In this document: one piece after another, positions 13,469-20,392 of the stretch
How the letters are laid out: each line of letters begins with the position of its first letter
Numbering within the stretch: position 1 is the first letter of the stretch
Assembly: GCF_014596915.1 (NCBI RefSeq)
Contig: NZ_JACVWU010000009.1
Location: forward strand, 186,001-250,000
DNA length: 64,000 bases
Direction: 5' to 3'
Origin: Streptomyces sp. TRM68416
GTDB taxonomy: Bacteria > Actinomycetota > Actinomycetes > Streptomycetales > Streptomycetaceae
The notes under the pieces: generated by a model
Databases searched by the model: none
Told to the model about the DNA's origin: nothing
What the model saw: only the letters and a program-made list of their open reading frames with translations
Position numbers and translations under genes: made by a program

Positions 13469-13809
13469 CTCGAAGGCGCGTACGCTCGCGTTCACCGAGG
13501 CAGGAGGGCGAGATGTCCGACGAGGGGTCCACCGAGTACCACGTCCCGCTCTGCGACGACCCGTCCCACGAGGTGCTGCTCATCGACTGCGGACCCCGCG
13601 AGACGGACGCGATCCGAGCCGTGCACAAGGTGACCGGGCTCAGCCTGTGGCACAGCCGGGCACTGGCACGCCGAGCACCCGTCACCCTCCTTCAGGGGCT
13701 GTCCGCGTACAGAGCCCAGTCCGCCGTCGCCGTACTCCAGAGCGCCGGCGCCCGAGCGGAGTGGCGCCAGGAGCCGAAGCCCGCACGGCGCACGACCACA
13801 TCGCCGTAA
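13469..13809. repeat. Direct duplication, copy 1 (partner 15269-15609)
   Basis: This 341-bp stretch recurs exactly 1,800 bp downstream with roughly 85% identity by eye. The repeat includes about 44 bp of shared upstream sequence (CTCGARGGCGCGTACGCTC) and the whole 98-codon gene. The upstream part of both copies reads as the last residues of an integrase (LEGAYA), so the duplication carried an integrase 3' end. Confidence 0.8.
13513..13809 (+). CDS. Ribosomal protein L7/L12 C-terminal-domain-like protein, copy 1
   Basis: A 98-residue cytoplasmic protein. Residues about 19-82 follow the L7/L12 C-terminal fold: beta strand VLLIDCGPRE, helix TDAIRAVHKVTGLSLWHSRALA, the PVTLLQGLS turn, and helix AQSAVAVLQSAGA before the last strand. 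It lacks the L7/L12 dimerisation domain, so it is not the ribosomal stalk protein. Such stand-alone domains are frequent in actinobacteria and have no known role. A near copy is encoded at 15313-15609. GCAGGAGGGCGAG provides the ribosome site. Confidence 0.75.
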   Translation: MSDEGSTEYHVPLCDDPSHEVLLIDCGPRETDAIRAVHKVTGLSLWHSRALARRAPVTLLQGLSAYRAQSAVAVLQSAGARAEWRQEPKPARRTTTSP

Positions 13810-15312: not shown

Positions 15313-15609
15313 ATGTCCGACGAAGAGGCCACCGAGTACTACACGCTGCTCTGCGACGACCCGTCACACGAGGTGGTCCTCGTCGACTGTGGGCCCCGCG
15401 AGATGGATGTGATCCTGGCCGTGCGAAAGGTGACCGGGCAGAGCTTGTGGCACAGCCGGGTCCTGGCGCGCCAAGCCCCCGTGACCCTCCTTGGGGGTCT
15501 GTCTGCGTACCGGGCTCAGTCCGCTGTCGCTGTTCTCCAGAACGCCGGCGCCAGAGCGGAGTGGAGACAGGAGCCGGAGCCCGGAGAGCGCACGGCCCCA
15601 TCGCCCTGA
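15313..15609 (+). CDS. Ribosomal protein L7/L12 C-terminal-domain-like protein, copy 2
   Basis: A 98-residue paralogue of the protein at 13513-13809, same length, differing mainly near the N-terminus and tail (SDEEATEYYTLLCDDPSHEV). The L12-type strand-helix-helix pattern is intact (VVLVDCGPREMDVILAVRKV; PVTLLGGLSAYRAQSAVAVL). The upstream 44 bp including the ribosome site are shared with copy 1. Both frames are open, so both copies may be expressed. It overlaps no other gene and is followed by the gpmA terminator. Confidence 0.75.
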   Translation: MSDEEATEYYTLLCDDPSHEVVLVDCGPREMDVILAVRKVTGQSLWHSRVLARQAPVTLLGGLSAYRAQSAVAVLQNAGARAEWRQEPEPGERTAPSP

Positions 15610-16602: not shown

Positions 16603-17859
16603 ATGTCCGTCGCCGCCCTGCGACGTGCCGCCCGGGAGACCGTCTCCGGGCTCCCCCGTGAGTTCTGGTGGCTGTGGACCAGCACCCTGGTCAACCGGCT
16701 CGGCGCCTTCGTCGCCACCTTCATGGCCCTGTACCTGACCCTCGACCGCGGCTACTCCGCCTCCTACGCCGGTCTCGTCGCCGCCCTCCACGGCCTCGGC
16801 GGCGTGATCTCCTCCCTGGGCGCCGGGGTCATGACGGACCGGCTCGGGCGGCGGCCCACCCTGCTGGTCGCCCAGGCCTCCACCGCCGCCTCCGTCGCGC
16901 TGCTCGGGTTCATGCACCACCCCGTCGCCATCGCGGGCGTCGCCTTCCTCGTCGGCATGGCCTCCAACGCCTCCCGGCCGGCCGTGCAGGCGATGATGGC
17001 CGACATCGTGCGCCCCCAGGACCGGGTGCGGGCGTTCTCGCTCAACTACTGGGCCATCAACCTCGGTTTCGCCGTCTCCGCCATGGCCGCCGGGTTCATC
17101 GCCGAGTACAGCTACCTCGCCGGGTTCCTGATCGAAGCGGCCATGACGGCCGTCTGCGCCGTCGTCGTCTTCGTGAAGCTGCCCGAGTCCCGGCCCGAGA
17201 GCGGCGGGACCGTCAAGGCGGGGGACGCGGTCGGCCTGGGGACCGTGCTGCGCGACGGGCGCTTCATGGGAGTCGTCGGGCTGTCGTTCCTGGTCGCGCT
17301 GATCTTCCAGCAGGGTTCCGTGGGACTGCCGGTGGCCATGGGCGAGGCGGGCTTCACCCCGGCCGACTACGGCCTCGCCATCGCCGTCAACGGCGTACTC
17401 ATCGTGGTCCTGCAGATCCCGGTCACCCGGTTCATCGAGCACCGGGACCCGCGGCGGCTGCTCGTGATCTCGTCCGTCCTCGCGGGCTACGGCTTCGGCC
17501 TCACCGCCTTCGCCGGGTCAGTCGGCGTCTTCGCGCTCACCGTCTGCGTGTGGACCCTCGCCGAGATCGTCAACGCGCCCACGCAGACCGGGCTCGTCGT
17601 CCGCCTCTCCCCCGTGCACGGACGCGGCCGCTACCAGGGCATGTACACCATGTCCTGGGCGGTGGCCTCCCTCGTAGCCCCGCTGATGTCCGGCTTCGTC
17701 ATCGACCACTACGGCGCCGAGTGGCTGTGGGGGCTGTGCGCCGTCATCGGCACGCTGGCGGGGCTCGGGTACGCGGTCCTGATGCGGCGGCTGCCGGCCG
17801 AGGAGCCGGTCGTCGAGGCCCCGGCGGCGCCGAAGCCCGACCTCAGCAGCACGGCCTGA
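16603..17859 (+). CDS. Major facilitator superfamily transporter
   Basis: A 418-residue inner-membrane transporter with about twelve helices and the MFS loop motif [12 protein letters not shown] (residues about 76-87) between helices 2 and 3. The central cytoplasmic loop (about 200-220, [16 protein letters not shown]) separates two six-helix halves. Residues QVGQ-like signature [18 protein letters not shown] near 345 is typical of MdtH-like drug exporters. The ATG follows GGGAGA. It is expressed divergently from gpmA. The substrate cannot be predicted; drug or sugar efflux are the usual family roles. Confidence 0.88.
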
Positions 17860-17860
17860 A

Positions 17861-17895
17861 GCCCTCCGCCGGGGATTGTTCCCCCGGCGGAGGGC
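17861..17895. terminator. Terminator after the MFS gene
   Basis: A perfect 14-bp stem (GCCCTCCGCCGGGG and its complement) with a 7-base loop starts 2 bp after the MFS stop codon. It also serves the convergent small precursor gene. Confidence 0.88.
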
Positions 17896-17913
17896 GGGTC
17901 CGCGAAGCCGCGA

Positions 17914-18135
17914 TCAGATGGTGACCGTGACGCCGACCTGCTGGTACTGCGCGGCCGTGGCCAGGGCCTGGCCCTGGACCGCGCCGACCTGGGCGCCGAC
18001 CTCGGACAGCACGTCCGCGCTGCTGACGACCGTGGGACCGGCGGTCACGGTGGCCTCGGGGTGCACGCCGCCGGAGACGGAGTCGAGGTCGGCGTCGGAG
18101 ATCTCAAGGGTCTCGAACCGGGGAGCGGAGTTCAT
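17914..18135 (-). CDS. Double-glycine leader peptide, orphan RiPP-precursor-like
   Basis: A 73-residue peptide with a leader of the double-glycine type: RFETLEISDADLDSVSGG ends at Gly22-Gly23. Many streptomycete peptides with this leader are annotated as type A2 lantipeptides. The 50-residue part after GG (starting VHPEATVTAGPTVVSS) contains no Cys and few Ser/Thr in its second half, and ends VGVTVTI. So no lanthionine ring is possible. The ATG at 18135 was preferred to a GTG 30 bp upstream because GAAGGG lies in front of it. No modification enzyme, peptidase or exporter gene is adjacent. Confidence 0.65.
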   Translation of the reverse strand: MNSAPRFETLEISDADLDSVSGGVHPEATVTAGPTVVSSADVLSEVGAQVGAVQGQALATAAQYQQVGVTVTI

Positions 18136-18432
18136 GGGGAAACTGCCCTTCACATGGGTGTTCACAGGGGAATGGATCCCGTTGGGGACGGGTGCGAGGG
18201 ATCAAACCACGGAGTGCTCCGGCCCTCCACCCAACCACCGCCGCCACCCGGGCAGTTCGCTCCGCGGCCTCCGCATCCGTGCGAACGCGGGCACGAATCG
18301 GGGGCCGTATCTCTACACGCCGCTTCCCACAACAGCCCCCACAGGCCTTGCCGTCGCCGCCGCGAACAGGACATCTCCGCACCAACGGAACCCACCTACC
18401 GGCGAGTTGCGCACGCCCTGTGCAGATTCCGG

Positions 18433-18858
18433 TCACGGGTGCATCCGCGCCCCCTTCAACACCTTGTCCACCGCGTTCCGCGGCCCGTACACCGCCAGTC
18501 CGACCACATCCAGCTCCCGCGTCGGCACCGCCCGCACCGCCGCCCGGTTGTCGCGGTCGTTGCCCGTGACGAACAGGTCGCTGGTGAAGACCGCCCGGGG
18601 CAGCGCGCGGGACAGCACGCGCGCGTGGGCCGCCGTCAGCGTCTCCTTGGTGCCCTCGAAGACCAGCACCGGCTGGCGGAACATGGGCAGGTACGGGACG
18701 CCGTCCGCGTCCTCGTAGGGCTCGCCGATCACCTCGGGCAGCTGGGCGCCCAGGCCGCTGACCAGGAACGCGGTGACGTTCAGGCGCTGCCAGATCTCCA
18801 AATCCGCGCGCAGCAGGACGGCGATCTTGGTGTCGTACCGGAGGGGTTCAGTGGTCAT
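18433..18858 (-). CDS. DUF2000 family protein
   Basis: A 141-residue cytoplasmic protein of DUF2000. The family pattern is visible: KIAVLLRADLEIWQRLNVTA at the N-terminus, LPEVIGEPYEDADG in the middle, LPRAVFTSDLFVTGND and a C-terminal DVVGLAVYGPRNAVDKVLKG helix. The family resembles peptidyl-tRNA hydrolase 2 in fold but has no proven function. The gene is divergent from the AraC-type gene with 49 bp between starts, so the regulator may control it. Confidence 0.82.
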   Translation of the reverse strand: MTTEPLRYDTKIAVLLRADLEIWQRLNVTAFLVSGLGAQLPEVIGEPYEDADGVPYLPMFRQPVLVFEGTKETLTAAHARVLSRALPRAVFTSDLFVTGNDRDNRAAVRAVPTRELDVVGLAVYGPRNAVDKVLKGARMHP

Positions 18859-19726: not shown

Positions 19727-20392
19727 ATGGACTGGCATGCGTGGCACGACGCGTACGACGCCCCCGACTCCTGTCTCAGCCGACGCCTGGCGCTCGTCCA
19801 GGAACGCATCCGTACCGCCCTCGACGAGGCCCCGCCGGGTCCGCTCCGCGCGCTCAGCCTCTGTGCCGGTCAGGGGCGTGACCTGATCGGGGCGCTCGCG
19901 GCGCATCCGCGCGGCGGCGACGTGCAGGCCCGCCTCGTCGAACTCGACGAGCGGAACGTGGCGGCGGCCCGGCGGCTGGCCGCGGCCGCCGGTCTGCCCG
20001 GGGTCGAAGTCGTCGCCGGGGACGCCGGGTTGACCGACCACTGCGTCGGCATCGCCCCGGCCGACCTGGTCATGCTCTGCGGCGTCCTCGGCAACCTGAC
20101 GGACGCCGACACCGAACGCGTCCTCGACCACTGCGTGCGGCTGTGCCGGACGGGCGGCACGGTGGTGTGGACCCGGACCCAGCACTACGACACGCGCGTG
20201 TGCGAGTGGCTGGAGGAGCGGGGGTTCGAGCGGGTGTGGGTGACCGGCCCCGACATCCCCTACGGGGTCGGGGCCCACCGCTTCACCGGCGAGTCCCTCC
20301 CCCTCGTCCCCGGGGAGCGCATGTTCACGTTCGTCGGCTACCAGGCCCTGCGCCGACCGGCCCCGGGCACGGCTCAGGTGACGTCTACGTAG
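19727..20392 (+). CDS. Class I SAM-dependent methyltransferase
   Basis: A 221-residue protein with a Rossmann-type SAM-binding core: motif I is ALSLCAGQGRDLIGAL (about residue 42-57), the acidic strand-2 end is VELDERN, and motif II/III regions are VVAGDAG and ADLVMLCGVLGNL. The C-terminal half has the GGTVVWTRTQ strand typical of the fold. No substrate can be assigned. It follows the AraC gene closely and its 3' end overlaps the convergent secreted-protein gene by 19 bp. Confidence 0.8.
   Translation: MDWHAWHDAYDAPDSCLSRRLALVQERIRTALDEAPPGPLRALSLCAGQGRDLIGALAAHPRGGDVQARLVELDERNVAAARRLAAAAGLPGVEVVAGDAGLTDHCVGIAPADLVMLCGVLGNLTDADTERVLDHCVRLCRTGGTVVWTRTQHYDTRVCEWLEERGFERVWVTGPDIPYGVGAHRFTGESLPLVPGERMFTFVGYQALRRPAPGTAQVTST

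Follow-up and report, generated by a model that had tools for sequence, protein, structure and literature searches.

In the 64,000-nucleotide stretch of Streptomyces sp. TRM68416 DNA analysed here (the window), a small reverse-strand gene in all likelihood codes for the precursor of an acidic peptide that is secreted, probably without modification, and that would be exported in trans by an NHLP-type exporter encoded on another contig (C78) and co-expressed with it. The exporter would act in trans because the genome holds one C39 domain and because the window gene has a promoter-like sequence in common with the precursor gene adjoining the exporter; on these two grounds, release of an unmodified peptide by a C39-type exporter is now the best supported of the three options listed in an earlier note on this DNA. 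A single peptide-secretion system probably includes both the window gene and the C78 precursor, and the window gene is probably neither decayed nor isolated.

The precursor gene and its neighbourhood

The features of the gene and of its surroundings are as follows.

17914..18135, reverse strand: precursor gene of 73 residues (open reading frame; leader profile E 1.4e-15; held-out core profile E 1.9e-14)
18067..18135, reverse strand: 23-residue double-glycine leader MNSAPRFETLEISDADLDSVSGG, with hydrophobic I at -12, L at -7 and V at -4, and T at -15
17917..18066, reverse strand: 50-residue core VHPEATVTAGPTVVSSADVLSEVGAQVGAVQGQALATAAQYQQVGVTVTI, free of Cys, Lys and Arg, with a net charge of -3 and an average mass of 4877.4 Da
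18143..18151, reverse strand: ribosome-binding site GAAGGGCAG, similar across the core family
18136..18180 (approximate limits), reverse strand: 5' block, partly common with the exporter-linked precursor gene by alignment
18199..18229, reverse strand: promoter-like element TGG-N15-CGTGGTTTGATCC, its 13-base part at 18199-18211 (pattern CGTGNTTTGATCC)
17861..17895, no strand assigned: perfect inverted repeat of 14 nt lying where the MFS and peptide genes converge, likely a shared terminator
16603-17859, forward strand: MFS transporter (Pfam), adjoining the window gene tail to tail
One side of the window gene, in order: SnoaL-like, L7/L12-like, F420 quinone reductase, L7/L12-like, histidine phosphatase, MFS transporter
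18433-18858, reverse strand: DUF2000 (Pfam), first listed on the other side of the window gene
After DUF2000: AraC-type regulator (Pfam)
19727-20392, forward strand: methyltransferase-domain protein (Pfam), 1.6 kb from the window gene
Beyond the methyltransferase-domain gene: YbjN, then glycosyltransferase (Pfam)

The frame is open from the ATG at 18135-18133 to the TGA at 17916-17914. An alternative GTG start 30 bases upstream would give 83 residues; we preferred the ATG because of GAAGGGCAG at 18151-18143 and of the family alignment. The peptide carries GG at -2/-1 and hydrophobic residues at three of the four positions examined, -15 being T; the earlier description of a double-glycine leader followed by a 50-residue core without Cys is confirmed. 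The leader was found in its own genome at E = 1.4e-15, a value which is not independent, the window leader being one of the 22 rows of the profile, and a loose double-glycine regular expression gave one match in the window and likewise one in total over 100 windows simulated at equal composition. For the unmodified core a monoisotopic mass of 4874.53 Da was computed. No match was obtained for the peptide in Pfam, nor in Rfam at gathering thresholds for 17800-18450; the fold of 17862-17905, the region of the inverted repeat, had a z of -4.1.

When the peptide was compared with NCBIfam up to E 10, nothing exceeded its cut-off and two lantibiotic models appeared below threshold, the class II lanthipeptide precursors NF000539 (plantaricin C; E 0.13, 12.8 of 29 bits) and TIGR03893 (lichenicidin A2; E 0.14, 12.6 of 32.95 bits). 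The resemblance of the leader to the lantibiotic type, as claimed from the letters alone, lies far below cut-off in these models and fits the general double-glycine signal. Unlike class II lanthipeptide precursors, the window peptide has a core free of Cys, and Pfam recognised no lanthionine synthetase in the 13 neighbouring genes scanned (12.3 to 25.3 kb), two of which had no match. Neither was a C39 or ABC peptide exporter or a peptidase found among these 13 genes, which agrees with the earlier remark that no modifying, cleaving or exporting gene is near, save that the MFS gene adjoins and a methyltransferase-domain gene lies close by. We also observed in this neighbourhood two near-duplicate 98-residue genes 1.8 kb apart (13513-13809 and 15313-15609, forward strand), each with an L7/L12 C-terminal domain (PF00542); these are stand-alone L7/L12-like domains.

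The exporter and its linked precursor

A genome-wide look for C39 peptidase-exporters, as proposed in the earlier note, returned a single place at E <= 1 in the 8.86 Mb (121 contigs) of this genome, where the Peptidase_C39 domain is part of the NHLP-type exporter on C78. A C39 exporter is thus present in the same cell as the window peptide, and if the Gly-Gly is cut by such an exporter, the one on C78 is the only candidate seen. It consists of a HlyD-like protein, a C39-ABC protein and a second ABC protein (TIGR03794, TIGR03796 and TIGR03797 at 162, 1026 and 899 bits, all over cut-off), and Pfam confirmed the C39 and ABC domains. In the C39-ABC protein Q, C, H and D, which we take to be the C39 active-site residues, are readable. 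All three genes of the NHLP export system therefore stand together on C78, linked to a paralogous precursor and unlinked to the window gene. This paralogue, the one other clear relative in the genome and 48% identical to the window peptide over residues 1-58, lies directly upstream of the exporter, the locus (L037) running from the linked precursor straight into the three exporter genes. Further matches in the genome (L003-L005, E 0.4-1.8) were taken as noise.

Upstream of the linked precursor, at a distance of some 3.5-10 kb (L037:25-6288), we observed a ram/SapB-like cluster, in which a response regulator and two ABC transporters accompany a class III LanKC seen in its C-terminal part. Near the exporter in L039, L044, L046, L048 and L051 there is likewise a regulator with 72-80% identity to the one in this cluster.

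We propose that the window gene would be transcribed from the promoter-like element which it has in common with the linked precursor gene, and that the precursor would be made in the cytoplasm, where the C39 domain of the NHLP ABC1 protein would recognise the 23-residue leader and cut after Gly-Gly, the ABC1/ABC2/HlyD exporter then releasing the 50-residue core of 4.88 kDa. One central exporter would in this way serve a linked conserved peptide as well as unlinked accessory peptides bearing the same tag and element.

Co-occurrence of leader and exporter in Streptomyces

The association of leader and exporter was examined in 247 Streptomyces genomes of 95% completeness or more, the own genome included. 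The leader-only profile matched 186 of them and the exporter model 189; both were present in 185, the leader alone in one (G199), the exporter alone in four and neither in 57 (Fisher 6e-50 with kinship ignored, related genomes inflating co-occurrence). By these counts, some three in four of the Streptomyces genomes examined have the peptide-secretion system. In G199 two pieces of an exporter gene, covering model positions 1-341 and 416-710, were found beside one of its leaders, so that the exporter looks split; in this locus (L245) ABC1 stands in two pieces beside an intact linked precursor, by a real break or a sequencing error. The four exporter-only genomes (G028, G062, G139 and G207) have an ABC1 of lower score, 861-944 bits, and no leader match, and they may export a different type of precursor.

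Two or more leader matches were found in 84 genomes (187 matches), namely in 83 of 189 genomes with an intact exporter against one of 58 without (Fisher 3e-11). Three of the 84, with six matches, were set aside because no exporter place was given for them. Each of the remaining 81 had exactly one leader match within 15 kb of the exporter (81 linked copies), and their 100 orphan copies lay on another contig or at least 204 kb from the exporter. This placement covers the multi-match genomes, the 102 single-match genomes standing outside it.

The core family and its synteny

The first core profile, built from the cores of the window peptide and two relatives without their leaders, matched 44 of 392 genomes at E <= 0.001, a few of the weak matches being clearly unrelated (partial, in frames several hundred residues long). 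The earlier statement that such genes are widespread in Streptomyces is hence true of the leader (186/247), while the core family of the window gene is rarer (44/392). The fetched loci yielded 36 distinct family peptides with leader and core; as the search reads stop-free frames only, the openness of their frames is no evidence. Outside the set of 247 genomes, 15 matched at E < 1e-4, and when G001 was left out for its partial match in a 327-residue frame, the exporter was present in 14 of 14 further core-family genomes, which is weak alone at a base rate of 189/247.

A held-out core profile of 35 members, from which the window was excluded, found the window core at E 1.9e-14 and nothing else among the 993 reading-frame fragments of the window. 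The lack of conservation between cores of different species, which the earlier note had named as grounds for giving up its reading, was not encountered. Holding the window out lowers circularity, the first relatives having nonetheless been found with it. Among 31 other flanked loci, a histidine-phosphatase (gpm-like) gene and an MFS gene stand beside the peptide in seven, the AraC gene in six and DUF2000 in five. These syntenic loci look like positional orthologues, and other members of the core family lie elsewhere.

A shared upstream element

Two copies of the 13-base sequence CGTGnTTTGATCC are present in the 8.86-Mb genome: one precedes the ATG of the window gene by 63 bases, the other that of the linked precursor by 137. 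The pattern CGTGNTTTGATCC likewise gave two matches in this genome, each preceding one of the two precursors. In 10 other exporter-bearing genomes 16 of its 17 matches lay upstream of a double-glycine precursor; in eight exporter-less genomes two matches were found, neither near such a precursor, and the backward pattern matched once across the same 18 genomes. As the element was derived from precursors of the same genomes, the test is its rarity elsewhere and not its presence.

We then assembled 154 distinct precursors for which 320 bp or more of upstream sequence was available, 56 of them exporter-linked and 98 orphan. From the 94 orphan loci L151-L244, 79 distinct peptides were used, the rest being left out for the pattern, a short upstream region or a repeated peptide. 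The element common to the 154 precursors reads TGG, 15-17 bases, GTGnTYnnATC. Within 220 bp of the ATG its bipartite form precedes 51 of 56 linked and 68 of 98 orphan precursors, being absent from 5/56 and 30/98, and the half-site GTGnTYnnATC precedes 52/56 and 79/98; the corresponding controls gave 0/56 and 1/98 on the reverse strand and a mean of 0.5/98 in simulated sequence. Strict clustering of the 154 cores produced 49 clusters, of which 32 were singletons, the window core among them (a loose single-linkage clustering merged 145 of the 154 and was dropped in its favour). Members of 11 of the 13 strict orphan clusters with at least two members carry the half-site; in two orphan clusters (of six and two members) it is absent even in relaxed form. 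Since the element precedes different cores, we take its distribution to suggest that it is kept by selection, and we infer that it is a promoter. The core family and the linked gene also have a 5' block of about 60 bases in common, partly diverged in the window, which may be explained by duplication, and the shared element itself may have been inherited from a gene duplication instead of being kept for co-regulation. A hairpin common to these aligned 5' blocks was considered as a possibility.

A separate orphan family (L184, L186, L232, L240, L242 and L243), with a leader of roughly MSNTSxIETREIADxxLDxVAGG and a core beginning LSVSGS.., is without the shared element in the forms tested. Its members have their own conserved sequence upstream, roughly GTTCCCGCnGCAGTGCGCCACGCATTGCGACC, and L186 has GCGTTTGATCC. 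In L205, and also in L035, two double-glycine precursors stand in tandem with no exporter in the locus, and upstream of them GTTCTGATC and GGTCTGATC replace the main element.

Chemistry, evolution and alternative explanations

Two Cys residues were found in none of the 154 cores, and one Cys in 25 of the 98 orphan and none of the 56 linked cores. Because the window core has none, lanthionine rings within the peptide are excluded, and we consider the peptide probably unmodified for this reason and for the lack of a nearby lanthionine synthetase. That an enzyme encoded elsewhere modifies it in trans, which would make it a RiPP in the strict sense, is quite unlikely. Leaders of the double-glycine kind are used by LanM systems, the window core does contain Ser and Thr, and candidates can be named in the class III lanthionine synthetase, whose C-terminal part was seen about 8.5 kb upstream of the linked precursor, and in the methyltransferase-domain gene; but this methyltransferase recurs in just one other core-family locus, the 14 most recurrent of the neighbour clusters listed for 32 loci showed no conspicuous peptide-modifying enzyme, and in L037 the linked precursor is directly followed by the exporter genes. 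Nothing found points to an enzyme acting in trans on the window peptide. Cationic cores are typical of class II unmodified bacteriocins, whereas the window core is acidic, the 56 exporter-linked cores have no Lys or Arg and the mean net charge is -2.4 in both the linked and the orphan group, so that by charge and by Lys/Arg content these cores are unlike cationic bacteriocins. Nor did any amphipathic segment stand out in a helical-moment scan of the window core. A classical class II bacteriocin, membrane-active and with its own immunity, is accordingly unlikely in spite of the double-glycine leader, the C39 exporter and the fast-evolving core; among the recurrent neighbours printed for core-family loci none was recognised as an immunity gene, such genes being diverse and small ones liable to be missed, though an MFS permease does recur at the syntenic sites (8/32 loci).

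The rates of evolution bear on a further explanation, namely that the window gene is a decaying duplicate of the linked precursor and its promoter which drifts without function. By a crude Nei-Gojobori count, which is expected to overstate ratios in this GC-rich genus, the median dN/dS was 0.26 for exporter ABC1, 0.32 for HlyD, 0.23 for the linked leader and 0.73 for the linked core, against 0.42 for the leader and 1.29 for the core of the orphan family. For the window gene against its family, the crude median pN/pS was 1.13 in the leader and 1.07 in the core, with no purifying selection visible. These values near and above 1 speak for decay, as do the singleton status of the window core and the promoter-like element and partly diverged 5' block which it has in common with the linked precursor. 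We nevertheless hold decay to be very improbable, as the held-out profile recognises the window core and gives 63 matches in the fetched loci, none of them an exporter-linked core, the 36 distinct family members all carry the leader at a length of 66-74 residues, the site of the window gene is syntenic in up to seven of 31 other loci and the 13-base element is an exact match. The decayed precursor considered in the earlier note is therefore disfavoured by the held-out profile and the synteny. The pattern of a leader that is held and a core that moves fits recognition or competition, and would fit relaxed constraint as well.

For a secreted peptide exported in trans, the reading we prefer, the most likely role would be that of an extracellular recognition peptide, either a signal or a factor in competition, given a conserved leader combined with numerous, fast-evolving cores; this role is much less certain than the export itself and is put forward tentatively.

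Comparison with known systems

That an exporter serves peptides encoded elsewhere is, in principle, already known. The published account of the pneumococcal ComAB, BlpAB and RtgAB substrates (PMC7018657) describes the same GG leader with hydrophobic residues at -12, -7 and -4 and, as here, one exporter serving several peptides. By the same account, the choice of exporter in pneumococcus is set by information in the leader, and an N-terminal leader motif can set it; the MNSxPQ leader end seen here recalls the -22 to -18 motif which routes peptides to RtgAB (PMC7018657), and by this analogy the conserved MNSxPQ end may be an exporter address. Unlike the pneumococcal systems, the one described here has an NHLP-type exporter with a second ABC protein, cores that are acidic and unrelated, and Thr at -15 in place of a hydrophobic residue; its orphan genes stand on other contigs or 204 kb and more from the exporter. 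Haft and colleagues described the TIGR03794/03796/03797 exporter with other leaders and many paralogues (PMC2887384). The NHLP/Nif11 systems treated there have in common with ours the three-gene exporter family and paralogous precursors within a genome, and some of those species are likewise without identified modifying enzymes. Unlike NHLP/Nif11 precursors, those described here have a short, lantibiotic-like double-glycine leader, and the models of the former (TIGR03793 and TIGR03798) did not match the window peptide in the NCBIfam scan up to E 10. A LanT survey (PMC3951391) mentions orphan LanT homologues and bacteriocins possibly encoded elsewhere in the genome. No description of the Streptomyces system, its leader, its core families or its element was found in the literature searched, which lies mostly outside subscription journals, and none of the matches listed for the element as sequence letters concerned Streptomyces.

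Significance

Taken across the genus, the results could reflect a Streptomyces secretion regulon made up of the NHLP exporter, a linked conserved peptide and scattered accessory peptides of many core families, the peptides being unmodified and acidic and the accessory ones turned on jointly by one dedicated bipartite promoter TGG-N15/16-CGTGnTTnnATCC, a plausible reading which stops a little short of probable. If it is true, the peptides would be strain-specific signals or surface or competition factors acting outside the cell, possibly in development, the last being suggested by the ram/SapB-like cluster near which the exporter locus lies here and in some further genomes. Mining of Streptomyces natural products around modifying enzymes would miss such peptides. 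With one exporter, a tag that is defined and an upstream element that is nearly unique, otherwise unexplained small genes would become one testable system, in which the upstream element offers a handle for finding the regulator.
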